Assembly (NCBI GenBank): GCA_944323045.1
Contig: CALUQX010000016.1
Coordinates: 1-63,787 of the forward strand
Origin: Candidatus Gastranaerophilales bacterium
GTDB taxonomy: Bacteria; Cyanobacteriota; Vampirovibrionia; Gastranaerophilales; Gastranaerophilaceae
DNA length: 63,787 bases
Reading direction: 5' to 3'
The notes beneath the pieces were generated by a model. The model saw only the letters and a list, made by a program, of their open reading frames with translations, was not told where the DNA came from and searched no databases. Position numbers and translations under genes: made by a program. Positions 3,875 through 53,906 of the stretch are shown piece after piece (positions within the stretch are counted from its first letter, which is position 1; each line of letters opens with the position of its first letter).

Positions 3875-4818
3875 TATTTATTCTCCTTTAATTTTTTGTC
3901 GAAATATTCTATTGTTTTGGTTAATCCTTCCTTGATATCAACTTTAGGCTCCCAGTTCAATTCTTTTTTAGCGAGCGAGATATCAGGTTTTCTCTGTGTC
4001 GGGTCATCACCCGGAAGAGGTTTGTAGACTATTTTAGAATTTGAATTTGTCATTTCAATAATCAATTTTGCAAAATCAAGAATTGTTCTTTCGGAAGGAT
4101 TTCCGAGATTAACCGGTCCGATAAATTTTTGGGTGTTGTTCATCATTTTTATCATGCCATCTACCAGATCTGAGACATAGCAGAATGAGCGGGTTTGAGA
4201 GCCGTCGCCATAAATTGTTATGTCATGATTTTGCAGAGCTTGCACTATGAAATTTGAAACGACACGCCCGTCATTCATATCCATATTTGGACCGTAAGTA
4301 TTAAAGATACGGATTATTCTTGTGTCGACATTATTTTGTCTGTGATAATCCATCATGAGCGTTTCAGCACAGCGTTTGCCTTCATCGTAGCAGCTTCTGA
4401 TGCCTATAGGGTTGACATTACCCCAGTAATCTTCTCTTTGCGGGTGAACTTTCGGATCTCCGTAAACTTCGCTTGTAGATGCCTGTAAAATAGTTGCCTT
4501 ACAGCGTTTGGCAAGCCCGAGCATATTAGTAACTCCGATTACAGATGTTTTTATTGTTTTAATCGCATTGTATTGATAATGCGGCGGGCTTGCAGGACAG
4601 GCAAGATTGTAAATCTGATCGACTTCTGCAAAATATTCTTTTGTGATGTCGTGTCTTACCAGTTCAAAATGGTCATTTTGTAAAAGATGTCTTATATTAT
4701 CTTTTGAACCGGTGAAAAAATTATCAAGACAAATAACCTCATTGCCTTCGTTCAATAATCTTTCACACAAATGGCTCCCTATAAATCCTGCGCCGCCGGT
4801 TACTAATATTCTTTTCAT
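3874..4818 (-). CDS. UDP-glucuronate decarboxylase (UDP-xylose synthase)
   Basis: A 314-residue extended SDR enzyme. [10 protein letters not shown] near the N-terminus binds NAD, and the catalytic YDEGK (YxxxK) follows the TSEVYGDP stretch typical of UDP-xylose synthase. It converts UDP-glucuronate made by ugd into UDP-xylose. It overlaps the upstream glycosyltransferase gene by four bases (ATGA) and ugd by one base, so translation is probably coupled. A UDP-glucuronate epimerase is a less likely alternative given the YDEGKR signature. Confidence 0.9.
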
Positions 4819-5870
4819 TTATTCTCCTTTGATTTTCTGATTCTTTTTCTTGCCAGTTTTAAGCCTAAAAATCTGTAAATCTGGCAGTCCGGTGTCTTTT
4901 TGACAGATAACAATTTCTCTGCCAATCCGTATTCTGTTACAAAATTTAGTTTGTTATACTGTTTGTTTTTTAATGCTTTTATGAATAATGAGTTGTTAAG
5001 CAAACCTAAATTTAACCCGTTAAAAATTTCTGAAGCCTGCTGCAAAATTTCACCGCGTAATTTTTCTGATGAATTAAAATAATCAAGGTATACAAAGCTT
5101 TTTATCTGTTTTTGCAGCATAAAGAAATATTTTTTAGTAAGATTATTTTCATTGTAGTAATTTACAAGCTGAGGGATTAATTTCAGACATTCAGTGGACT
5201 TGTTTAATTTCTGGTATTTAGTTCCCATGATAGAATTCTGACGCTGAATATAGTGATAAAAACATTTATCAATGTAATAGCCGTTTTTTGCCCATACAGA
5301 ATACATAAGCCAGAAGGCAGTATCTTCATTTTTTGACATACTTGTGAAACGGATATTTTTATCTTTTATGATAGATGTTTTGAAAATTTTGCCCCACATT
5401 GTTGCCGGTGTTTTTTGAATAACCTTGCTGTCGACTTTTGTTTTGCCTTTATATTTAATTTTAAGATATTTTTTCATAGCATGAACAGTGTCAGATTCGT
5501 ATTCCTGTACAATGTTTGCGCCGAAACAAACATAATCGACATCGTTGTTAATCATTGCGTTGTAAGCTGTTTCAAATGTTTCGGGTTCAATCCAATCATC
5601 TGCATCAACAAATCCGACATATTTGCTTGATACAATATCAAGTCTGGAATTCCATGCAGCGGATACTCCTTCATTTTCTTTGTTGATGATTTTTATCCTG
5701 CTGTCTTTTTGCGCAAATTCATTTAAAATTGAGAGAGAATTATCAGTAGAGCCGTCATTAACACAAATTATTTCTATGTCTTTAAAAGTTTGATTAACAA
5801 CGCTGTCCAGACATTTGCGCAAATATTTTTCGACATTATATACAGGAATTATTACAGATAAATCGGTCAT
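4815..5870 (-). CDS. Glycosyltransferase family 2
   Basis: A GT-A fold glycosyltransferase. It has [19 protein letters not shown] at the N-terminus, NDGSTD for the nucleotide pocket and a DADDW metal-binding motif near residue 92. It probably adds a sugar during capsule, O-antigen or other surface glycan assembly. I place the start at the ATG at 5870 because it overlaps the galE stop as TAATG, the same junction used at 3874 and in the rfb operon. An upstream ATG at 5882 would overlap galE more. The short basic C-terminus and lack of membrane segments suggest a cytoplasmic peripheral enzyme. Confidence 0.85.
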
Positions 5871-6868
5871 TATTTTACGCAAACTCCATTCATAAATTTT
5901 TCCCAGTTATATGCGGATTGTACACTTTCTTGAATTGTTTTTTCAGGTTTCCAGCCGAGTATTTTTTGTGCTTTTTGAGAATCCGCATACAATTTTGCCG
6001 GATCACCTGCACGGCGATTAACGACTTCAACCGGTATTTTTTTATCAAGAACCTGTTCGCACACATCAAAGATATTTTTCACACTGTCGCCGTGTTCTGT
6101 TCCAAGGTTAAAAACATCGGATTTGTTTTCTTTGTACAAATATTCAAGTGCCAGCCTGTGCACTTCAGCAAGGTCTTCTACATTAACATAATCGCGTATA
6201 CATGTGCCATCGGGTGTATCATAATCATCGCCGAATATTTTAAATGTTTGACCGCCGGTAAAGGTTGATTTTAGAATATTAGGGATTAAATGAGTTTCAG
6301 GTTCATGCCATTCGCCGACTCTGTTTTTCGAATCACATCCTGCAACGTTAAAATATCTCAGTTTAATTGATTTTAGTCCGTAAGCCCTGTCGTAATCTTC
6401 CATAATTCGTTCGACCATCAATTTAGATGCGCCGTAAGGATTTATTGGATTTTGCGGATGTTTTTCGTCAATCGGGGTGTATTCAGGCTCACCGTAAGTT
6501 GCACAGGTTGAGGAAAATACAATTTTTTTCACATTATGTTTAATCATTGTATCAAGAAGATTCAATGTGCCGAATGTATTATTCCTATAATATTTTGCCG
6601 GATTTTCTACACTTTCGCCGACAAGTGCAAATGCTGCAAAATGTATTACAGCATCAATATCATACTTTTCAAAAACTTTTTCTATATCTTCAATATTTCT
6701 CAAGTCTCCTTTTTCAAACTTTACACTGCCGATTTTTTGCAGAGTTTGAACAGTTTCAATATGACCGTTTTCAAGATTATCAAAGATAACAATATCTTTT
6801 CCTGCATTCAAAAAATTTATAACTGTATGACTTCCGATATAACCTGCCCCGCCGGTAATTAATATCAT
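5870..6868 (-). CDS. galE: UDP-glucose 4-epimerase
   Basis: Interconverts UDP-glucose and UDP-galactose. The protein starts MILITGGAGYIGSHT, the NAD-binding fingerprint. It has SSTCATYGEP followed by the YGASK catalytic tyrosine and lysine and the RYFNVAGCD stretch characteristic of GalE. The open frame extends 22 codons further upstream to 6934, but AGGATAAAAAAT directly precedes the ATG at 6868 and the fold begins there, so I use that start. It is first in the operon galE-GT2-UXS-ugd. Confidence 0.93.
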   Translation of the reverse strand: MILITGGAGYIGSHTVINFLNAGKDIVIFDNLENGHIETVQTLQKIGSVKFEKGDLRNIEDIEKVFEKYDIDAVIHFAAFALVGESVENPAKYYRNNTFGTLNLLDTMIKHNVKKIVFSSTCATYGEPEYTPIDEKHPQNPINPYGASKLMVERIMEDYDRAYGLKSIKLRYFNVAGCDSKNRVGEWHEPETHLIPNILKSTFTGGQTFKIFGDDYDTPDGTCIRDYVNVEDLAEVHRLALEYLYKENKSDVFNLGTEHGDSVKNIFDVCEQVLDKKIPVEVVNRRAGDPAKLYADSQKAQKILGWKPEKTIQESVQSAYNWEKFMNGVCVK

Positions 6869-7008
6869 ATTTTTTATCCTCAAAAATGTCGACAATCCCT
6901 CTATTATTAAACCATAGTAAATAATAAAATTCAACTTTAATAAGTGTTTGTAATAATGATGATGCTTAACATAATATGCAAAAAAAAATTAACAGCTATA
7001 ATAAGATT

Positions 7009-7557
7009 ATGGCAAAGATTTTAAAGAGAGATTTTTATTCAGAAGAAACAACAGAGGTTGCCCGCAATATGCTGGGAAAAGTTTTGTGCCGTGAAATAAA
7101 CGGAGCAATATACCGCGGACTGATTGTAGAAACCGAAGCTTATACTCAGGACGAACCTTCCTGCCATGCATACAATGGGATTACAAAGCGTTCAAAAACA
7201 CTGTTTGAAAAGCCCGGATTGGCATATGTTTATATGACATACGGTATGTATCACTGTTTGAATATAACAACCGAACGCGAAGGGTTTGGTGCCAGCGCGC
7301 TTATCCGTGCAATAGAGCCGTTGAGTGCAAATTTTACCAACACAAACGGACCCGCCAAAATGTGCCGCGAACTTAACATTACCCGTGAACTAAACGGGGT
7401 TGATGTCACAAATAGACAAAGCGGTTTATGGCTGGAAGAGGGAACAGCAGTTGAGGCTGAAAATATTGTTCAAACTACACGTATAGGAATAAAACTCGCC
7501 GCCGAACTTCCGTGGCGCTTTTACATAAAAGATAACAAATGGGTCTCTAAAAAATAA
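7009..7557 (+). CDS. 3-methyladenine DNA glycosylase (AAG/MPG family)
   Basis: A base-excision repair enzyme that removes alkylated purines. Family hallmarks are ARNMLGKVL, GLIVETEAYTQDEPSCHAY (the catalytic glutamate lies in VETEAY), YMTYGMYHCLNI and the GPAKMCREL stretch. About 182 residues from the ATG at 7009, normal for bacterial members. An ATG at 6976 is also in frame. Neither start has a clear ribosome-binding site, and TATAAT at 6997-7002 would place transcription at or near the 7009 ATG. The gene diverges from galE and stands alone. Confidence 0.92.
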   Translation: MAKILKRDFYSEETTEVARNMLGKVLCREINGAIYRGLIVETEAYTQDEPSCHAYNGITKRSKTLFEKPGLAYVYMTYGMYHCLNITTEREGFGASALIRAIEPLSANFTNTNGPAKMCRELNITRELNGVDVTNRQSGLWLEEGTAVEAENIVQTTRIGIKLAAELPWRFYIKDNKWVSKK

Positions 7558-7559
7558 TT

Positions 7560-7793
7560 TTAAACTTCTATAAAAAGTCTCTGCCCGACAATATTTTGTT
7601 TGCCATTATAGTAGCCGGCAAAATATCCGCCTCTTACAGGGGCATTTTTAGCATAATTATTCAGGCTGTTGCCATTATAATTCATAAACGGATTATTGCT
7701 GTAAGGTTTGGATATATTTGACCTTACCGGTGCTGTAATCTGTGGCGTTGCCGGTGCCAGTACCTGATTTAATAAAGATATCAAACTTGCCAT
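7560..7793 (-). CDS. Small hypothetical protein
   Basis: A 77-residue protein rich in Asn, Tyr, Pro and Gly, with a hydrophobic start (MASLISLLNQVLAP) and no recognisable domain. AAGGTAG lies just before the ATG, a good ribosome-binding site, and the gene ends two bases after the convergent glycosylase gene. The low-complexity, probably disordered middle suggests a small surface or scaffold peptide, but nothing visible fixes a role. Confidence 0.5.
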   Translation of the reverse strand: MASLISLLNQVLAPATPQITAPVRSNISKPYSNNPFMNYNGNSLNNYAKNAPVRGGYFAGYYNGKQNIVGQRLFIEV

Positions 7794-7924
7794 TCTACCT
7801 TGAACCTCTCTTACGGAATAAATTTAATGATTTATATTCCTTTGTCATTATTATAGCACAACTTTACAATAAAATTTAACTAATCTTAATAAAAATCATC
7901 TTTTTTATGTAGTATAATAATTCT

Positions 7925-9178
7925 ATGCAAAATGAAAAAAAGAAAAAAATCTTAATAGTCGGCAGTTCTGCAAAAGAACATGCGCTTGCAATAAAATTCA
8001 GTCAGTATGACAATATTGAAAAAATTTTCGCGGCTCCGGGTAATGACGCAATAAAAGAAGTCGCAGAAGTCGTTGATATTCGTGAAGAAAATATTGAAGA
8101 ACTTTTGAAATTTGTTATTGAAAACGAAATTGACCTGACAATTGCAAGTTCTGAAACCGCAATAAAAAATGACATTGCAGAAGTCTTTCAGGCAAACGGG
8201 CAGATGATTTTTGCCCCGTCTGCACAAAGTTCTAAATTTGCAATTAATAAAGCTTTTTGTAAGAAATTCCTGTATAAATTGCATATACCAACCCCGCGTT
8301 TCGGGATTTTTGAAAAACAGCAGGCAGCATGTGATTACCTGTCGGATGCGAATTTTCCTGTAGTCGTGCGAAGCGAAGAAACAATTAACGGAAAAGACAG
8401 ACTTGTCTGTCCAAAACAAAATATTGCTCAAATTTTTGTTGAAGATTTATTCGCAAGAGATGAGAAAAAAGTGCTTATTGAAGAATACGTTTACGGGCAT
8501 GAATTTACACTTTATGTAATCACTGACGGCTATCACGCTCTGCCATTGAGTGCTGCTGCAAATTACAAATTCCTATCAGAAGGCGATGGCGGTTTGCTTA
8601 CAGACGGTATAGGCGCTTTTGCTCCTGATTACAAAATTTCAAACGAAATTATTGACCATATTATGAAAAATGTTGTCATGAATATATTAAATGCGCTTGA
8701 GCGTCAACAGATTGCTTATCTTGGAATTCTCGGAATTGACTGTGTTCTTAAAAATGACGGCAAGTATTCTGTGCTGGAATTCAAACCGTTCTTTCAAGAC
8801 CATGACTGTGCCTGTATGCTTGAGTTGATTGAAGAAAATCTGTATACACTTTTTGAAGCCTGTGCTGTAGGCTCATTTGCAGATGATTACGAACATATTG
8901 CATTTTCTGACAATTCTGCGATATCCTGTGTTATTTCTTCTCAATCAGAAGGTAAAATAATAAGCGGTCTGGATATGGTTGAAAGCAGTCAGATAAACCA
9001 TTTCAATACGCATAAAAATACTTATCTTGAATACGAAACGCCAAAAGGTAAAGCTTTAACTGTCACAGCCTGTGCCAGAACACTCAGCCGTGCAAAGAAA
9101 AAGCTTTATGATGACATTGAACAAATAACATTTGACGGGAAAAAATACCGCAAAGATATTTGTGCGGAAGCAAATTAA
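7925..9178 (+). CDS. PurD-like protein (diverged glycinamide ribonucleotide synthetase fold)
   Basis: Full-length homologue of phosphoribosylamine-glycine ligase with ATP-grasp and C-terminal PurD domains. Matching landmarks are GSSAKEHALA for GxGxREHA, EEYVYGHEFTLYVITDG, GDGGLLTDGIGAFAPD, and a C-terminal ITFDGKKYRKDI. Key positions differ. The usual EFNxRFGDPE metal-binding stretch reads EFKPFFQDHD, so the Asn is Lys, and the ATP-loop stretch KADGLAAGKG reads RSEETINGKD. It may have altered specificity, be regulatory, or be a fast-evolving true PurD. No other purine gene is in the window. There is no ribosome-binding site, and TATAAT at 7913-7918 suggests a leaderless transcript. Confidence 0.75.
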   Translation: MQNEKKKKILIVGSSAKEHALAIKFSQYDNIEKIFAAPGNDAIKEVAEVVDIREENIEELLKFVIENEIDLTIASSETAIKNDIAEVFQANGQMIFAPSAQSSKFAINKAFCKKFLYKLHIPTPRFGIFEKQQAACDYLSDANFPVVVRSEETINGKDRLVCPKQNIAQIFVEDLFARDEKKVLIEEYVYGHEFTLYVITDGYHALPLSAAANYKFLSEGDGGLLTDGIGAFAPDYKISNEIIDHIMKNVVMNILNALERQQIAYLGILGIDCVLKNDGKYSVLEFKPFFQDHDCACMLELIEENLYTLFEACAVGSFADDYEHIAFSDNSAISCVISSQSEGKIISGLDMVESSQINHFNTHKNTYLEYETPKGKALTVTACARTLSRAKKKLYDDIEQITFDGKKYRKDICAEAN

Positions 9179-43264: not shown

Positions 43265-44008
43265 ATGAATTATATATCGTTTTTATTGAGCAATTTAATA
43301 CATTGGGAGAATAACTTGAAACACTTAATATCACGAGGAGATTTTCGGAAATTTTCTGTAAAGTCGGCATTTTCGCTGTCCGAATTGCTTGTCGCGCTTA
43401 CCATAATTGGAGTTATTGCAGCACTTGTAATAACAAATATTGTTTCAGCGATTGATGAAAAAAAGAATATGGTGGCATTGAGAAAAATTCAGAATTCGCT
43501 TACGCAGGTTACACAGTTAGTTATTGTTGATAACATGTCACCGCTTTATTGGAACTTGAGTGAATATGATTACAATTCAGCGCAAAAAGCATATTCATAT
43601 TACAGACCATATTTTAAAGTTTTGCGGGAATGTTCCAATCAGGAAGGCTGCTGGAAATATCCGACAAAATACTTAAGCGGCAGAGTCTATCTTACGCATA
43701 CAGAACCTTACCAGTATATGTTTACTCTGACAGACGGTATGAATGTTTTGATAAATGTATTTTCAAAAGAAATTATTGAAGAGGAATTTGGCGTAAGGGT
43801 TGATGCTCCGTCTGTTGTGTTTATCGTGGATGTGAATGGTGACAGAAGACCGAATCAGGTAGGCTCAGATATTTTTGCCTTTGTTCTGGATGAAGATAGA
43901 ATACTGCCTGCCGGTGCTGATTCTACATACAACTGTAACACCGCAGGTTTTGGACTTGCTTGTACTGCTCGTGTTATGAGCGATAACTGGAAAATAAGTT
44001 ATTACTAA
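43265..44008 (+). CDS. Prepilin-like protein
   Basis: A 247-residue prepilin. A leader of about 36 residues ends KSA, then FSLSELLVALTIIGVIAALV, with Glu at +5 of the mature protein. The globular part carries a cysteine pair (CSNQEGC) and an NPxxYxF-like soluble fold. The tail ACTARVMSDNW resembles the CTAWVVTNGN tail of the prepilin at 9180, so the two are one subfamily. The calcium-like DVNGDRRPNQVGSD stretch is shared with pseudopilins of type II systems. Likely a minor pilin or pseudopilin. Confidence 0.82.
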   Translation: MNYISFLLSNLIHWENNLKHLISRGDFRKFSVKSAFSLSELLVALTIIGVIAALVITNIVSAIDEKKNMVALRKIQNSLTQVTQLVIVDNMSPLYWNLSEYDYNSAQKAYSYYRPYFKVLRECSNQEGCWKYPTKYLSGRVYLTHTEPYQYMFTLTDGMNVLINVFSKEIIEEEFGVRVDAPSVVFIVDVNGDRRPNQVGSDIFAFVLDEDRILPAGADSTYNCNTAGFGLACTARVMSDNWKISYY

Positions 44009-45684: not shown

Positions 45685-45789
45685 ATAATTTTAAGTTGTC
45701 ATCAAGTATTGTCATACTTGAAGGTGCGCTACCCCTCTCCTAAAAAATGTTCCCCGAACATTTTTCAGTCGGCAGAGTGCTACATTCCG
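45685..45789 (-). repeat. tRNA-Pro-derived repeat unit 2
   Basis: About 105 bases. It opens CGGAATGTAGC, exactly as tRNA-Pro does, then has a hairpin around TGTTCGGGGAACA, then GGTAGCGCACC (again tRNA-Pro sequence), then a second hairpin CAAGTAT/ATACTTG. It abuts the tRNA 5' end directly. It cannot fold as a normal tRNA. Confidence 0.75.
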
Positions 45790-45909
45790 AAAGTTGTATT
45801 CTGATAAGTTTTAAGTTGTCATCAAGTATTGTCATACTTGAAGGTGCGCTACCCCTCTCCTGAAAAATGTTCCCCGAACATTTTTTAGTCGGCAGAGTGC
45901 TACATTCCG
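45790..45909 (-). repeat. tRNA-Pro-derived repeat unit 1
   Basis: About 120 bases, near-identical to the neighbouring unit over its first 100, with a 20-base extra tail. The same CGGAATGTAGC head, TGTTCGGGG hairpin, GGTAGCGCACC block and CAAGTAT hairpin are present. Differences in the hairpin stem are few. Confidence 0.75.
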
Positions 45910-45967
45910 ATACATCTTTGTAAGATGCAATGAAATTATAGAACAGCCGCAATAAAAAATCAAGCAG

Positions 45968-46462
45968 TTATTTTAAACCTAGTGCATATTTATTACTTAC
46001 TGATATCATATTCATTGCATTGAAGATATCATTGCTCTTGTCTATTTCTGTAGAATATCTGCTGTCAATGCTGGCGAGTTCTCGCTGGTAATCCTCAAGT
46101 ACACTCATTTTTGCGCCGTCATTTCCATATTGCGATGCAAGTTGTTCTATTTTTTCGGATATTTTTTTACACAACTCATCAAGATTATCTTTATATGAGT
46201 ACTGAACCCCGACATCTTCAGCCAAACTCTGCGCTTTGGTAAGCAAGGATTGATCCGATGAATTCGGGCGTGCCTGATCACTTTTTGACATTGCCTCAAC
46301 CTGCGCTATCAAGCTTTGCGCTTCTGATTCCGAACTTACTGTTGACGGGTCTATCCCGAGTGCTTGCAGTTTCGCTTTTGTTTCTTCACTAAGTTCATTT
46401 GTTTTAAACGCATACGCACTGCTAATCGCGGTGCTTGCGCTGATTGAATCTATTGTAGACAT
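45968..46462 (-). CDS. Hypothetical helical protein
   Basis: A 164-residue Ser/Ala-rich protein. MSTIDSISASTAISSAYAFK at the start and SNKYALGLK at the end frame a helical middle with predicted coiled-coil character (LDELCKKISEKIEQLASQ). The ends loosely recall small flagellar or secretion-related proteins, but I cannot assign one. AAGGA lies about nine bases before the ATG. It lies about 176 bases downstream of the TonB-like operon on the same strand. Confidence 0.6.
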   Translation of the reverse strand: MSTIDSISASTAISSAYAFKTNELSEETKAKLQALGIDPSTVSSESEAQSLIAQVEAMSKSDQARPNSSDQSLLTKAQSLAEDVGVQYSYKDNLDELCKKISEKIEQLASQYGNDGAKMSVLEDYQRELASIDSRYSTEIDKSNDIFNAMNMISVSNKYALGLK

Positions 46463-46638: not shown

Positions 46639-47562
46639 TTATTGGAAACTTATTTCATATGCACCATTATTTATGTGAAATTTGATTCTTATTGCTTCGC
46701 CCTTGTAAGCTGCAGGCGGCGGCTGGAATTTCGGTACCCGCATAAGCATATAATAAATAGCATCATTCATCGCCTTATTATCAGCATATTGGACAAATTT
46801 TCTGTTAATGAGTTTTCCTGTAGAGTCCACGCTGAATTCAATTACACATGTTCCGCCTCCGGGTATACTGCTTACTGTAAGTTTTGATAAAAGAACTTCC
46901 CGTAATATGTTTTTGTATTTAGTTACAGCAGGATCATTAGATACAGCCGGTTTGGCTGGTTTTGTCTGCTGCGGGGCAGTTTTTTGCTCTTTTTTAACCT
47001 CAGACTTTGCCGTTGTCTGCGTTTTAGGCTGGGAATTAACCTGTGTCTTTGGTTTAGTCTGCTTTTGAACAGGTTTGTTTACAGTTTGCGTTTTGGGAAC
47101 AGATGTTTGCTGTACCGGTTTGGAAATATTTTGTGTTTTGGGCTGAGAAACAGGTGTTTCTATTCGTTTAATAATTTTTTGGATAATCACAACCGGAGCA
47201 GGCTCCGACGGTTCTACAGGCTGCGCCGCTGGCTGTGGTTCCGGATCTTTCCAGATTTTTTCTATATCCGGAATATCCTTTTTTTCAGCCTTTTGTTCTT
47301 CATTTTTAAGCGGCATAGTTGTTTGTACCGGATTATTGCCGCCAGTACTGTTTGGTATTACAAACAGTATTATCAGCGAAAGTATCAGGCAAAAAGAAAA
47401 TATGCCCCATGAAACAATTTCACCCTTTTCCGGCGGTGTCTTTTCGCGGCTGAACATTTTTTCTACAGGCGGCTCAATTATTTCAAACGTATTGTTTCCG
47501 CATTCACAGTATTCAATTTTTCTATCATAAACTGCTCCGCAGTCTAAACATCTGTATTTCAA
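46639..47562 (-). CDS. Zinc-ribbon membrane protein with TonB-like C-terminus
   Basis: A 307-residue protein. It has an N-terminal zinc ribbon (CLDCGAVYDRKIEYCECG, four cysteines, cytoplasmic), a membrane helix at about 50-70 (FSFCLILSLIILFVIPN), a long Pro/Lys/Gln/Thr linker (about 90-215) and a C-terminal TonB-type domain (GTCVIEFSVDSTGKLINRKF, MLMRVPKFQPPP). TonB spans the periplasm to energise outer-membrane receptors; the ribbon is unusual. The start is TTG at 47562, directly after the stop of the 43-residue gene. Last gene of the envelope operon. Confidence 0.8.
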   Translation of the reverse strand: MKYRCLDCGAVYDRKIEYCECGNNTFEIIEPPVEKMFSREKTPPEKGEIVSWGIFSFCLILSLIILFVIPNSTGGNNPVQTTMPLKNEEQKAEKKDIPDIEKIWKDPEPQPAAQPVEPSEPAPVVIIQKIIKRIETPVSQPKTQNISKPVQQTSVPKTQTVNKPVQKQTKPKTQVNSQPKTQTTAKSEVKKEQKTAPQQTKPAKPAVSNDPAVTKYKNILREVLLSKLTVSSIPGGGTCVIEFSVDSTGKLINRKFVQYADNKAMNDAIYYMLMRVPKFQPPPAAYKGEAIRIKFHINNGAYEISFQ

Positions 47563-47694
47563 TTAATTAGCGCCTTTCTTTATGATAATACGTTCAATCT
47601 GGAAAGTCTTATGCATTTGAGGATTTATTTTTGCGACAACTGCTGTCATTATGATTAGTGCAAGAATTATTAATATTGCTGTATATTTTTTCAT
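47563..47694 (-). CDS. 43-residue single-pass membrane protein
   Basis: A short gene with ATG at 47692-47694, overlapping the upstream stop as TAATG, and a TAA that abuts the TTG of the next gene. The N-terminus MKKYTAILIILALIIMTAVV is one membrane helix, followed by a basic tail (HKTFQIERIIIKK). Exact packing between two TonB-like genes argues that it is translated. It may be a small subunit of the same envelope complex; no family recognised. Confidence 0.7.
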   Translation of the reverse strand: MKKYTAILIILALIIMTAVVAKINPQMHKTFQIERIIIKKGAN

Positions 47695-48521
47695 TATCTA
47701 ATCCTTTCGTAATCAGAATAGTCACCCGGTGTTGAATATCTGTCTGTATTAGACATTGTATAACCGCCTGTAACATTCACTATTGTTCTTTTGGTACGCG
47801 GCGGAAATTTCAATATTGCTGTATGCTGATAGCTTGTTAAAATAGGTTTTATAACCCGTTTGGCAAGTGGTGTGTAATTGTTGTCATCAGACCATGTATT
47901 AATATTGGAAATATTCCCGTTTTTGTCTACTGTGAATGAGAAATTAAAGGTTGTGCCATACGGGGCGGAGATTTTTGAATCTCTCATCACCTGATTTTGT
48001 AAATCGCTGCGCCACTTGTTCCAGACAATAATTTCTTCTTCCTCAGTCAAAGGCTTGTCTTCAATTTTTATTGTTTTAACCGGTTGTGAAGGTTTAACCG
48101 CAGTTTGCGTTTTAGGCTGTTCTTTTACTGTTGTTGCCGGTGTTTGTGCATTTTGCAAAACTCTGTTAAGAAGTTCTTGATTTGTGTTTTGCACCTGCGG
48201 CTGAGTTTGTTTTACAACATGCGTTGAAGGTTTTTGAATTGTTGTAGTGACGACAGTTTGCGGCTGTGTTTTTACGTGTTCTTCAATAACCTGAACAATT
48301 ACTTTTTGCTGCGGCTGTGCAGCCGTTTTAACCTCCTGTGTTACAGGTTGAACATTATATGCAGGTTTAACTTCAGCCTTTTGCGTTGGCTGTGTTTGTT
48401 CTGATATTTGATAATTTGTTCCTGTAACCATAACCGGCTTATGCATTTTGGAATCAGTTGAAAATGCATAAGCTGTGAACAATATGAATAATACTATTAA
48501 AGTTATTTTTATTATATTCAT
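47694..48521 (-). CDS. TonB-like protein
   Basis: A 275-residue protein. It has an N-terminal membrane anchor or signal (NIIKITLIVLFILFTAYAFS), a Gln/Thr/Pro/Val-rich linker (about 35-150) and a C-terminal TonB-type fold (FNFSFTVDKNGNISNINTWS, ILKFPPRTKRTIV). It has the same architecture as the ribbon protein two genes downstream but with a different N-terminus. It starts two bases after the FHA-like gene. No ExbB or ExbD gene is recognisable in the window. Confidence 0.75.
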   Translation of the reverse strand: MNIIKITLIVLFILFTAYAFSTDSKMHKPVMVTGTNYQISEQTQPTQKAEVKPAYNVQPVTQEVKTAAQPQQKVIVQVIEEHVKTQPQTVVTTTIQKPSTHVVKQTQPQVQNTNQELLNRVLQNAQTPATTVKEQPKTQTAVKPSQPVKTIKIEDKPLTEEEEIIVWNKWRSDLQNQVMRDSKISAPYGTTFNFSFTVDKNGNISNINTWSDDNNYTPLAKRVIKPILTSYQHTAILKFPPRTKRTIVNVTGGYTMSNTDRYSTPGDYSDYERIR

Positions 48522-48523
48522 AA

Positions 48524-50137
48524 TTAGTCTTTATCTACTTTAGAAAGGAGTTCATCGCAGGAGTTAATTTCAAATTTTGTCTGACTGAGCATAAGCGTTT
48601 CTGCTATCAACAAAGCAGTAGGCACAAGTGCTGCAACCAAACTCAAAAACATGCCTTGCAGGTCGCCGCCAATTTCTGTCATAAAGTAAGAAACATTCAT
48701 CGCAAATTCAATAAAAATTATTGCGCAGGCAATTGCTAGTGCGCGATTTTTTTCTGTTTCAATCTTTTTAACCCCTTCAAGCCCGTAAATTGAAACGCCG
48801 TGTTCAATATAATCACTGAATCCATCCTGTTTAATCACCTGTGAGCCTTGAATTTTTTTAGCAGAGAAAAATGCGTTTACAAATGAGAAAAATGCAAAGA
48901 TGATTAAGAAAGTCGCAAGCACAAGAAATACAGGGCTGAATCTCAAACCTGAAATTCTTATCCAGCCGGCAGCTTCCGGAAAACACATAGCAAGAGTGTT
49001 AGAAACACCATATGCAAGAAACGGAGCCGTGATGATGCCAATTACTGTTTCGCCGACTGATTTCAATTGCAGATTGAACAATTTGTCTTTGATATATTGC
49101 AGCTTTGTATTGCTTAAGCTGTTGATATATCTGTCAATCCACAATCTGTATTTTTTCAAAACATCTTCAAAATCTTCGCGGTACTCATACTTATCCAGTG
49201 CTGCAGAACTTTCTGCCCCCGTGCTTTTAAAGTATCCGCAAGAAATTGCAAGCACTGCCATTATACCTGTAAAAAACAGTGCCATAAACAATGCAAAAGT
49301 TATAAAATCGCTTACATTTTTATAATAAATAAGATTGATTACATAAATTCCTATTATAAAAAGCAGTGAAAATCCAATCAAAAAATTCTGCGCAATAGGA
49401 GCTGTTTTTGACATGTTGTCGTTTATTTTTCCCTGTAAAAACAGATACACTCCCTGTTTTAAGAGCAGACAAATTCCATACACAATAAGTGTATAAACAA
49501 TCCACACTTTTATATTTGTCGGAAGATGCAAATATGTTGATGTTTCTTTTATTTGAAGTCCCATTAAATAATTTGACAATCCAAAAGAAGATAAAAGTGC
49601 CGCAAAAAACATCAATATGTGTAGAAATATTCCCGTGCGCCTGTTTGAGGTCAGTTTTTGTTTCAGATTTGATATTGTGAAACCCACCTGTTTAATTATT
49701 GCAACGCGGTCTTTTTCTATTTCTTCTTTTTGTTTCTCTATTTTTACACGGGTAACCGCATTAACATCTTTGCCGTAAAGCCCTTTTAAATCATCTTCTG
49801 TAAAATCTTCTTTAGCAATTGAAGAAACAGTTTTTACCTGAGTCTGCTCTTCAGCCAGTATCTTAACGCTGATAAAGTCATCAGAATCCGCAATCATAAG
49901 TTTGCAGACACTGCCGACTTCAACTTTTTGGACAGGCTGACCTCTGAAAAGTACACGGTCGTTATGAAATGTATTTATTATTGTGCATCTGTTGTTAACT
50001 CTGTCATTTTGTATGGTCAACAGCAGGTCAAAATCAAAATCAAGTCTAAAGTCGCAGTTCGGATTTGTTCCGACATTAATCATGTCTTTATCAGTAAATA
50101 CTTTTTCTTGTTTTGATGTTGAAATAATTATAGCCAT
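48524..50137 (-). CDS. Polytopic membrane protein with FHA-like N-terminus
   Basis: A 537-residue protein. The first 95 residues pattern like an FHA domain (MINVGTNPNCDFRLDFDFDL, then VLFRGQPVQKVEVGSVCKLM), but the Arg, Ser and His that bind phosphothreonine are not evident, so it may be degenerate. About eight membrane helices follow in three groups (180-280, 365-420, 470-520), with a long helical cytoplasmic loop near 300-360. The last group (LVAALVPTALLIAETLML) could be a channel helix. Function unknown. It lies between the VWA and TonB-like genes. Confidence 0.65.
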   Translation of the reverse strand: MAIIISTSKQEKVFTDKDMINVGTNPNCDFRLDFDFDLLLTIQNDRVNNRCTIINTFHNDRVLFRGQPVQKVEVGSVCKLMIADSDDFISVKILAEEQTQVKTVSSIAKEDFTEDDLKGLYGKDVNAVTRVKIEKQKEEIEKDRVAIIKQVGFTISNLKQKLTSNRRTGIFLHILMFFAALLSSFGLSNYLMGLQIKETSTYLHLPTNIKVWIVYTLIVYGICLLLKQGVYLFLQGKINDNMSKTAPIAQNFLIGFSLLFIIGIYVINLIYYKNVSDFITFALFMALFFTGIMAVLAISCGYFKSTGAESSAALDKYEYREDFEDVLKKYRLWIDRYINSLSNTKLQYIKDKLFNLQLKSVGETVIGIITAPFLAYGVSNTLAMCFPEAAGWIRISGLRFSPVFLVLATFLIIFAFFSFVNAFFSAKKIQGSQVIKQDGFSDYIEHGVSIYGLEGVKKIETEKNRALAIACAIIFIEFAMNVSYFMTEIGGDLQGMFLSLVAALVPTALLIAETLMLSQTKFEINSCDELLSKVDKD

Positions 50138-50159
50138 AATATTTATACCCCTTATTTTG

Positions 50160-50834
50160 TTATCTTCCGATAGCTGTTAAAAATTTTCTTATTGCCTTAT
50201 CACTTGTCTGTTCCGGCGCAACGATTAAATGAGTTTCTCCCAGCACAGGTGTGAGAGTTTCTTTTGCCAAATCCAGTTTTGCGGGATGAGCGTTCAAAAA
50301 CATCATTGATAAATCCGGTGCGTATTCAAGAACATTTTTAACGTTTTCAGGCAGAAGTTTCCAGTCAATCTGTTTTTCTACAGCCCCTTCGTTTTCCAAA
50401 TCGCCGATTACTACAATTGCCGGAACATAACCTGATTTTTTCATGTTTAAACAGTGGTTGAAAGCTTTTTTCAACCCCAGACCATACGCTGTACCATAAT
50501 CATTTGCGTCATATTGCGTGAATGCATCCATTGCTTTTGTAATACCGCTTCCGTTAGTCGGAGCACCTTCATAGATTAGATAAGCGTCTTCTGATACCCT
50601 TAATATTTTTATCTGATCTTCAGGATCAAGAATATTGCAGATTTGTTTCAGCAATTTTTTTTGTTCGGGAAGTTTTTCCTGATTTGACGCAGAAGAATCT
50701 ATTACAAAAACAATTCCTGCCGGCTTAAAGTCATCGATTTTAATATGAGACAAACCAACCCATAAAAGTTTTAAAACTACCGCCAGTGCCAGAACTATCA
50801 GCCCTAAAGTTATTATTCTTTTATTTAATTTCAT
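50160..50834 (-). CDS. Membrane-anchored VWA-domain protein
   Basis: A 224-residue protein with an N-terminal membrane helix (IITLGLIVLALAVVLKLLWV) and a von Willebrand A fold. The MIDAS motif DSSAS lies in GIVFVIDSSAS at about residue 47, with later GTAYGLGL and VVIGDLEN positions able to complete the metal site. VWA domains bind protein partners through the metal. It is 22 bases upstream of the FHA-like gene and probably part of one complex. Confidence 0.75.
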   Translation of the reverse strand: MKLNKRIITLGLIVLALAVVLKLLWVGLSHIKIDDFKPAGIVFVIDSSASNQEKLPEQKKLLKQICNILDPEDQIKILRVSEDAYLIYEGAPTNGSGITKAMDAFTQYDANDYGTAYGLGLKKAFNHCLNMKKSGYVPAIVVIGDLENEGAVEKQIDWKLLPENVKNVLEYAPDLSMMFLNAHPAKLDLAKETLTPVLGETHLIVAPEQTSDKAIRKFLTAIGR

Positions 50835-50889
50835 AAACTTATTTTTCCTTTTTTGCTTAATGTAACATATTTTTCAGATTAAATCAAAT

Positions 50890-51762
50890 TTATATAGGCT
50901 GATAAACAGCGGCATTTACGGGCTGAGTAAGGATAAGCTGCAAAATGGCATCCGGCTGAATGCTGGCATCAGTCCCTCTTTGCATAGACCCTCTGAGAAT
51001 CCCTGCAGCAGCCCCTGCTCCGCCAAGAATCGCCATATTCCTGCCCCAGTTGTCCCCTCCGGATAAAGAAGACCCGACTATTGCGGCAAGAATACCTATT
51101 GCAGCACCTATAAGGGTGTCACGTGTCATATATTTTGCGCGTTCACTTTTACTTGCTATTCTTATCGGTTGGGTTGAAATATCATAAGAGACCCCTTCCG
51201 GAGTTGTAACGCGGTTAAAAGTTATTTCTAATTCCCCGCTGCCATAAGCATATCCGGCTGAATTTACATCGGTTACCACACCATAAACAACACTGCCGGC
51301 AGGCGCAAATACCTGACCTTTATATTCCCAGTTCTGATAAAGTGCGGCGGTAATCGAATCATTTACATCCAAACTGCCTGAACTTATACCTGATTGTAGT
51401 TTTACGTTCAAAATATTTCCCTGCGGAATAGTGACCAGATGCCCCTGATAAACCGGTTCTATAGGCTTTGTTCCATGAATTTCCGGCAGGACGTAATCCT
51501 CAGGCAGGCTTAACTCAACAGGCTGTTCCAGAGGTATACTGCTTTGATTGCGTTTTATAATATGTTTTTCTTGTTTAAGTTTGTTTTTCTGTTCAACAGG
51601 AATAGTTTGAGATTCTAAAGGTTCGGTCTGTTCAAGAAATTGTCTGTCAAATTCTGCCTGCGCCTCGTCTGAAAAATCGTACTCGGTAAAAGTATCTGAC
51701 GCATATGAAACTTGCGCCAATCCAAGTAATATACAGAATAAACAAGCCAAAATTTTTTTCAT
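50890..51762 (-). CDS. Secreted glycine-zipper protein, TrbI/VirB10-like core
   Basis: A 290-residue protein with a signal peptide (KKILACLFCILLGLAQVSYA). A central region (GNILNVKLQSGISSGSLDVN to FNRVTTPEGVSYDIS) resembles the beta-rich core of TrbI/VirB10-type and related envelope proteins. Near 215-255 a glycine-zipper hairpin (GAAIGILAAIVGSSLSGG) could insert in a membrane. The gap to the VWA gene is 55 bases, so it may be the first gene of the operon or have its own unit. Confidence 0.65.
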   Translation of the reverse strand: MKKILACLFCILLGLAQVSYASDTFTEYDFSDEAQAEFDRQFLEQTEPLESQTIPVEQKNKLKQEKHIIKRNQSSIPLEQPVELSLPEDYVLPEIHGTKPIEPVYQGHLVTIPQGNILNVKLQSGISSGSLDVNDSITAALYQNWEYKGQVFAPAGSVVYGVVTDVNSAGYAYGSGELEITFNRVTTPEGVSYDISTQPIRIASKSERAKYMTRDTLIGAAIGILAAIVGSSLSGGDNWGRNMAILGGAGAAAGILRGSMQRGTDASIQPDAILQLILTQPVNAAVYQPI

Positions 51763-52826: not shown

Positions 52827-53906
52827 ATGTCTCAAAAAGCTTTCACTTTGGCAGAAGTTTTGATCACACTGGCGATAATCGGCGTTGTTGCGGCGATAAC
52901 GATACCAAGCCTCGTTAAGAATTACAACGAAAAGGCATGGGCAACGGCACAGGATGTGTTTACGAAACGTCTAGAAGTCGCAACCCGCCAAATGAACACC
53001 GAGGAAAAACTTGCGGGTTACTCAAGCACCATGGACTTTGTGAACGAACTTAAGAAGTACATAAAAATAACCCGCGTATGCGACAACAAAAACATTACAA
53101 AATGTTTTAATAAAGAGGTAATTTGGAACGAGGGCGAAGACCCGATAGATATGTCCACAATCAAGAATGCCGCATCCCTCGGACAGGATGACTGGGATAC
53201 AGATACAGTAGCAGTTCAGTTTGCGAACGGTGTAAATGCAGTAATCGCCTACAATCCGAATGCAACCCAAGACCCGTTTAATAATACATTTGCGGCGACA
53301 GCAGCAAGCATGGCGATTCTGTATGATGTGTCAGGCAACAAGAACCCGAATATGAAAGGCAAAGACATCGCCCATAACGCAAATGTAAAACAACTTGCAG
53401 GAGTAACAGGATGCTTGTTACCAGAAGACGAAGTAGGATTTTGCATAAGCCAGATACTAGGACCACAGAATGGCGGCTATGGACCATTAACCAAAGCACA
53501 ATGTGAAGAGATAGCAGATGCAGGTTATGGTAACAAGAAAGAATGGTGTGGCAAATATACAAGTGATTATTGGGCAGATGCGGTGAAAGCATGTGGCGGC
53601 GTAGATAACATGCCAACAATGGCGCAGTTAGCTGAATTAGCGGCATATTTATATGACTACGACGGCTCAATAGAGCTAGTTGGTGGAGTCTTTGTTCTAC
53701 CTCCATTGAACATGGATAAAGCGAGTCAATTCATTTCAGCTACACCATTAAGTCATAATATATTCTATATTTGGTCAGTACCAGAGATTGATGAGTTTGG
53801 GGCAGACTTTTTGGTCTACCTATATGATAGCATTCTTTATGGCAGATGTGATGGTGATAATGACCGTGGCGAAAGTAAGATGCTCGCGGTTTGTGTGGAC
53901 AACTAA
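52827..53906 (+). CDS. Long prepilin with variable C-terminal domain (paralog 1)
   Basis: A 359-residue prepilin with a minimal leader, MSQKA, then FTLAEVLITLAIIGVVAAIT. Residues 30-190 are almost identical to the paralog at 61762. The rest diverges but keeps a scaffold: KACGG, MPTMAQLAELAAYLYDYDG, ASQFISAT, WS, and LAVCV at the end. That pattern recalls the DUF1566/formylglycine-type, C-lectin-like fold used for display of variable surfaces. Many cysteines occur. Probably an adhesive minor or tip pilin. GGAGG precedes the ATG. Confidence 0.83.
   Translation: MSQKAFTLAEVLITLAIIGVVAAITIPSLVKNYNEKAWATAQDVFTKRLEVATRQMNTEEKLAGYSSTMDFVNELKKYIKITRVCDNKNITKCFNKEVIWNEGEDPIDMSTIKNAASLGQDDWDTDTVAVQFANGVNAVIAYNPNATQDPFNNTFAATAASMAILYDVSGNKNPNMKGKDIAHNANVKQLAGVTGCLLPEDEVGFCISQILGPQNGGYGPLTKAQCEEIADAGYGNKKEWCGKYTSDYWADAVKACGGVDNMPTMAQLAELAAYLYDYDGSIELVGGVFVLPPLNMDKASQFISATPLSHNIFYIWSVPEIDEFGADFLVYLYDSILYGRCDGDNDRGESKMLAVCVDN

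Follow-up and report, generated by a model that had tools for sequence, protein, structure and literature searches.

The evidence gives good support to a conserved trans-envelope device encoded by a six-gene operon of a Candidatus Gastranaerophilales bacterium, because the gene order is kept in 22 genera, the arms are anchored in the inner membrane and a VirB10-like partner is held in common with the canonical Ton cluster. We put at roughly 0.5 the probability that the encoded proteins form an envelope-spanning complex peculiar to Gastranaerophilales, which would serve to tether or display VWA proteins without the usual ExbB/ExbD drive; the topology of the proteins, their assembly into a complex, any contact made with the VirB10-like protein and the function are read from sequence evidence. 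A search of the literature on Gastranaerophilales envelope machinery found no relevant work.

A compact envelope operon

The operon occupies positions 51762 down to 46639 on the minus strand of the window, the whole stretch of 63,787 nucleotides that was analysed. Its six ORFs encode, in gene order, a secreted VirB10-like glycine-zipper protein, a membrane-anchored VWA protein, an FHA-like polytopic protein (FHA-8TM), a TonB-like arm, a 43-aa single-TM protein and a zinc-ribbon arm, with intergenic gaps of 55, 22, 2, -1 and 0 bases. All six were found where the earlier note had placed them, and its description of five packed genes (gaps of -1 to 22 bases) preceded by a glycine-zipper gene 55 bases upstream agreed with the coordinates and gaps. 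Comparison with congeners revealed purifying selection on every gene, the 43-aa gene included, with dN/dS ratios that are rough because several congener pairs are close to saturation at synonymous sites: 0.016-0.039 for the membrane VWA gene, 0.02-0.04 (very strong constraint) for FHA-8TM, and about 0.14-0.15 for the 43-aa ORF in two unsaturated pairs. Promoter and terminator scans gave scores no higher than those of shuffled sequences. An anti-phage defence system was considered and rejected, as PADLOC defence models matched none of the five proteins tested.

Conservation and spread

Gene order was compared across 107 loci with the FHA-8TM gene as anchor, a redundant set in which some genomes were entered twice via two collections. 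Within that set the VWA gene lay immediately upstream of FHA-8TM in 104 of 107 loci and the TonB-like gene immediately downstream in 105 of 107; the zinc-ribbon arm gene came next in most loci, and the VirB10-like gene stood ahead in many. Gene-order conservation in relatives had been set beforehand as a refuting test, as had assignment of all six proteins to a known pilus or gliding system: the order VirB10L-VWA-FHA8TM-TonB-(43aa)-ZnTolA was kept across 22 genera, and no known system covers all six. In two-copy genomes, trees of the member genes grouped the copies mostly by operon type and not by genome, indicating that the operon duplicates as a unit. The outer flanks of the operon differ between loci and carry plsY, pilin-like genes and others.

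FHA-8TM was found in 200 of 382 genomes of the class and in 128 of 386 genomes of the phylum, and co-occurrence of the operon proteins was tested family by family. All listed FHA-8TM matches fell within a single family of gut Vampirovibrionia (Gastranaerophilales), except for one genome of another family, whose match probably reflects contamination. By name, the relatives were Gastranaerophilales MAGs or unnamed bacterial MAGs.

A putative VirB10-like partner in two systems

The first gene (51762-50890, minus strand) encodes the 290-aa protein that had been described as a glycine-zipper protein, in which Pfam and the homologue set place a VirB10/TrbI-like domain ahead of the glycine zipper. 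PF03743 (TrbI) matched the operon's member at 3e-4 and 11 of 22 homologues, with a best value of 7.6e-6 and all matches below the Pfam cut-off; CagY and ComB10 gave weak profile matches. We therefore call the protein VirB10/TrbI-like on the strength of these sub-cut-off and weak matches. A putative C-terminal domain signature of VirB10 type links it to the VirB10/TrbI family (CagY, ComB10), and it differs from that family in having a signal peptide instead of a TM segment, in its glycine zipper and in the lack of secretion ATPases.

The source genome has a paralogue of this protein in a canonical cluster on another contig (C27), which comprises a 197-aa protein, a VirB10-like protein, TonB, ExbB, ExbD and ExbD; the two VirB10-like proteins are 32% identical (E 3e-26; profile-profile E 2e-48). 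Of 20 further loci, two were MotA-type neighbourhoods, one ended inside tonB at a contig end and 17 were intact; together with the source genome's copy these make 18 intact clusters, and in 18/18 of them tonB-exbB-exbD has a VirB10-like gene ahead of it. The canonical VirB10-like protein of the most distant genome was a better match to the operon-type profile than to the canonical-type profile. The presence of VirB10-like genes in both settings ties the same kind of outer partner twice to TonB-type arms, and because the canonical ExbB-ExbD-TonB cluster carries a paralogue of the operon's VirB10-like protein, the operon looks like a trans-envelope system parallel to canonical Ton. The same distribution bears on the proposal that the operon encodes a cut-down type IV secretion or conjugation-like channel with the VirB10-like protein as its basis. 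The TrbI/VirB10-like domain speaks for such a channel, but the operon has no VirB4/VirD4-type ATPase, and members of the VirB10-like family are neighbours of tonB-exbBD all over the class, so that the family is no conjugation marker in the operon; we regard this proposal as highly improbable.

Two arms and a small membrane protein

The last gene (47562-46639, minus strand, TTG start) encodes a 307-aa protein composed of a zinc ribbon, a TM helix, a Pro/Gln/Lys linker and a TonB/TolA-type C-terminal domain. It exceeds the Pfam TonB_2 (PF13103) cut-off (25 versus 22 bits), PF13103 is found in 20 of 22 homologues, and its profile matches TonB structures (6sly, 1.6e-4). The proposed zinc ribbon was borne out by Cys5, Cys8, Cys19 and Cys21 (CxxC...CxC), which are invariant in 22 homologues, and probably lies on the cytoplasmic side. 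The TonB-like arm (275 aa; 48521-47694, minus strand) is built, according to its family alignment, from a TM segment, a PxMHK-type motif that is degenerate in the operon's member, a Q/K/P/T-rich linker and a C-terminal domain, with a conserved YSTPxDYxDxExIR tail in the family. This arm had no Pfam TonB match and is related to the zinc-ribbon arm by profile comparison (hhalign E 5e-6, prob. 86%), a similarity from which a TonB fold may be proposed. Thus, of the two TonB-type proteins claimed earlier, the zinc-ribbon protein is backed by Pfam and PDB profiles, and the 275-aa arm by its profile link to that protein only.

Between the arms lies the gene for a 43-aa single-TM protein with a PxMHKxF motif (47694-47563, minus strand). 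An alignment and profile cross-matches relate this protein both to the c9 peptides that sister operons encode and to the TonB-like arm in its TM part. Its conservation within the genus, with the purifying selection noted above, upholds the claim that this short ORF is a real gene.

In solved structures, TonB and TolA bind their motors (TolQ/ExbB) via the Ser-x3-His of an SHLS motif (PMC12215075). The TM helix contained or adjoined a His in 18/18 canonical TonBs, 0/22 zinc-ribbon arms and 1/26 TonB-like arms, and no TolQ, SHLS motif or TM Asp was seen in the operon proteins. The operon does lack ExbB/ExbD, as had been claimed for the set, but the genome carries one ExbB gene and two ExbD genes in the C27 cluster. 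One alternative is that both arms, as ordinary paralogues of TonB/TolA, borrow the one ExbB/ExbD motor that the genome encodes, with the other operon proteins as accessories. The motor is available, and the C-terminal domain of the zinc-ribbon arm is related to the genome's canonical TonB (E 9e-8); the absence of the TM His from 22/22 and 25/26 arms, set against its presence in every canonical TonB, nevertheless makes such borrowing quite unlikely. The missing Ser-His motif may leave room for another mode of coupling. No TonB-dependent receptor was found in the source genome, and such a receptor was present in just 11 of 59 relatives, so that receptor-driven import is not what the operon is for.

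An FHA-bearing polytopic protein

FHA-8TM (537 aa; 50137-48524, minus strand) consists of an FHA-like domain (residues 1-98), a long helix and about eight hydrophobic segments, likely TM helices, in keeping with the earlier description of an FHA-like polytopic protein. The FHA beta-sandwich fold aligned with 6ccd over 93 residues (Z 13.0, rmsd 2.2), and in the family alignment GTN/GSN replaces GR, so that the phosphothreonine-binding Gly-Arg motif is not in the domain. Stand-alone FHA genes were also seen in genus g48, outside any operon of this type. Residues 114-537 were modelled with a pLDDT of 86 and a pTM of 0.71, and K227, T370, E477, N481, T507 and E513 are predicted to be buried and are invariant in 66/66 FHA-8TM sequences. 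No Pfam or PDB sequence family matched the protein, and neither Foldseek nor VIA-align found any significant match to its TM part among solved structures. FHA-8TM is probably a lineage-specific hub protein. Two further leads were dropped. An internal 4+4 TM duplication gave N-half versus C-half hhalign scores (28.7-30.6) above those of column-shuffled and reversed versions, yet controls with a shifted split did as well through other alignments; a candidate remote relative in G043, at E 8e-6 for a single-sequence query, was gone when a profile query was used.

The earlier note had cast the polytopic protein as a possible motor and advised an HMM search against the MotA/TolQ/ExbB family. That search found no PF01618 match among 30 FHA-8TM members, and hhalign against the genome's ExbB profile returned a probability of 0.1-0.3, that is, no similarity, leading us to reject a MotA/TolQ/ExbB sequence relationship. 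FHA-8TM could still take the place of ExbB/ExbD as an ion-driven motor for both arms, within a second, structurally unrelated system of periplasmic force transduction. The layout of the operon parallels VirB10L-TonB-ExbB-ExbD, the buried residues E477, N481, T507, E513 and K227 are invariant, and constraint on the protein is very strong. However, there is no ExbB homology, transporters and scaffolds have buried Glu too, no coupling motif is known for the arms and the TM part gave no significant solved-structure match, and we judge the idea unlikely. Its more specific form, a new class of inner-membrane motor in which ion flow via the buried glutamates of an FHA-gated 8-TM protein moves the arms, unrelated to the 5:2 ExbBD/TolQR/MotAB complexes, is less likely still. 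An ion-coupled role of FHA-8TM is possible given the invariant buried polar residues, and an energised device, for which Glu477 and Glu513 would be the residues to point to, is likewise possible. What stands of the energised outer-membrane or secretion device proposed earlier is therefore the conserved trans-envelope set; energisation is not borne out, the Ser-His motif being absent, and neither is secretion, with no ATPase or secretin in the operon.

VWA proteins as putative clients

The second gene (50834-50160, minus strand) encodes a 224-aa membrane-anchored VWA protein with an N-terminal TM segment. The match to Pfam VWA_2 (PF13519, 8e-8) and the conserved metal site confirmed the claim of a membrane VWA with the MIDAS sequence DSSAS: the MIDAS is complete (D46-x-S48-x-S50, T115 and D145), with D46 and S48 invariant and S50, T115 and D145 at least 90% conserved in the family alignment. 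Sister-type operons have a divergently oriented, adjoining gene for a secreted VWA (c6), with a small PxMHK peptide gene (c9) upstream. Two genomes, G015 and G018, have second-copy operons without the membrane VWA; one c6 gene adjoins the first of these operons and four adjoin the second. In all secreted VWAs of the c6 type (19/19), a flexible linker leads to a C-terminal Y[EK][FY] tail, which is missing from housekeeping VWA paralogues, including that of the source genome (0/7). This replacement of the membrane VWA by c6 genes, with the conservation of the c6 tail, suggests that VWA proteins are exchangeable clients of the operon device, and the tail may serve to dock them to a TonB-type domain. 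Tailed secreted VWAs are absent from the operon's own genus, so that a display role is extrapolated from sister genera.

Relation to known machines and proposed architecture

The operon has inner-membrane-anchored arms, proline-rich linkers and a TonB/TolA C-terminal domain in common with TonB-ExbB-ExbD and TolA-TolQ-TolR, and a VirB10-like glycine-zipper partner gene in common with the canonical Ton cluster. Unlike Ton and Tol, it lacks ExbB/ExbD and the Ser-His of SHLS and instead has FHA-8TM and a VWA protein. VWA force transducers encoded next to TolQ, one of whose two families is without an ExbD/TolR gene, have been described (PMC12204202); they too are inner-membrane-tethered VWAs in an envelope-spanning gene set, but their VWA domains sit on an SHLS- or Asp-bearing TM helix beside a TolQ homologue, features that the operon lacks. 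In cyanobacteria, the same phylum as the operon's host, the TonB-like proteins SjdR (PMC8262864) and TonB2 (PMC8597729) of Anabaena have no role in siderophore transport and affect envelope structure, which indicates that non-transport roles of TonB-like proteins exist within the phylum; both are single proteins with no known membership of a VWA/FHA operon.

Myxococcus Agl-Glt is likewise a single machine with FHA, TonB-like and envelope-spanning components; its GltG has both an FHA and a TonB domain and is a binding partner of the AglR motor (PMC3169522). That shared domain vocabulary would fit a divergent Agl-Glt-like gliding or focal-adhesion machinery, but GltG joins FHA and TonB on one bitopic protein, the operon's FHA domain sits on an 8-TM protein and not on a TonB arm, and the operon contains no AglRQS, TPR GltD/E or beta-barrel GltA/B/H genes; an Agl-Glt-like machinery is therefore very unlikely. 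In logic, the Glt complexes are nevertheless probably the nearest relatives of the operon device, which is our best reading of the comparison. Because defining features of the Ton/Tol and Glt families were looked for and were absent, we file the operon as a TonB/TolA-type trans-envelope system outside both.

In the tether or display model that we prefer, with topologies assigned from charge distribution and zinc-site logic, FHA-8TM would be an inner-membrane hub whose FHA domain offers a cytoplasmic docking or regulatory surface, the zinc ribbon providing a second cytoplasmic control surface. The membrane VWA domain would lie around the hub and face the periplasm, and the two single-TM arms would cross the periplasm, with their TonB/TolA-type C-terminal domains extending to the outer envelope and the VirB10-like protein there. 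VWA domains that the device keeps on the periplasmic face or farther out could then act in adhesion, envelope organisation or surface contact. Such a device would not be a nutrient importer, and the genome's ExbB/ExbD would not drive it in their usual manner.

Implications

The known partners of TonB- and TolA-type arms are ExbB/TolQ motors. Here a conserved operon combines two arms lacking the motor-binding motif with an unrelated 8-TM FHA protein, which points either to another means of powering the outer membrane or to a VWA-bearing bridge that is passive. Because the VirB10-like protein is a concrete partner common to the operon and the canonical Ton cluster, the hypothesis is testable. 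The operon appears to be previously undescribed, an inner-to-outer membrane bridge that resembles force-transmitting systems without their motor, in a large, uncultured group of gut bacteria whose surface biology is almost unknown.

Genes and motifs associated with the operon

Within the operon set, an N-terminal transmembrane segment and a PxMHK motif recur in three distinct proteins: the 43-aa single-TM protein (window 47563-47694), the 275-aa TonB-like arm (window 47694-48521) and the small peptide c9 that adjoins sister-type operons of relatives (L033-L042). Secreted VWA genes (c6) also adjoin sister operons (L034, L036, L037, L039, L040, L041, L044, L140, L147, L157, L158 and L195); their products share a Y[EK][FY] tail, conserved at the C-terminus, and the gene is present four times in tandem in the relative G018 (L044).

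Pilin-like genes with prepilin-type N-termini lie near both flanks of the window operon (43265-44008 and 52827-53906), and related genes (c7) occur near the operons of some relatives. The conserved 164-aa gene c8 (window 45968-46462) is directly downstream, a position just 3′ of the operon that it holds in the window's genus and some relatives. Two copies of a 102-nt direct repeat (window 45689-45910), 98% identical and with 120-nt spacing, each contain the palindrome AAATGTTCCCCGAACATTT.

In genus g48, a homologue of the operon FHA domain is encoded by a stand-alone 99-aa gene (L191 6039-6338; L192 6021-6320); in two other members, the FHA match is interrupted by stop codons.

Canonical TonB cluster

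No earlier description of the VirB10-like protein adjoining tonB was found in the sources searched. Its gene lies on contig C27 of the source genome, in a canonical 197aa-VirB10L-TonB-ExbB-ExbD-ExbD cluster (L160, G000:C27:8000-20000, at 4055-8888). A TonB-dependent receptor was undetected in most class genomes having this cluster, which is itself conserved class-wide.
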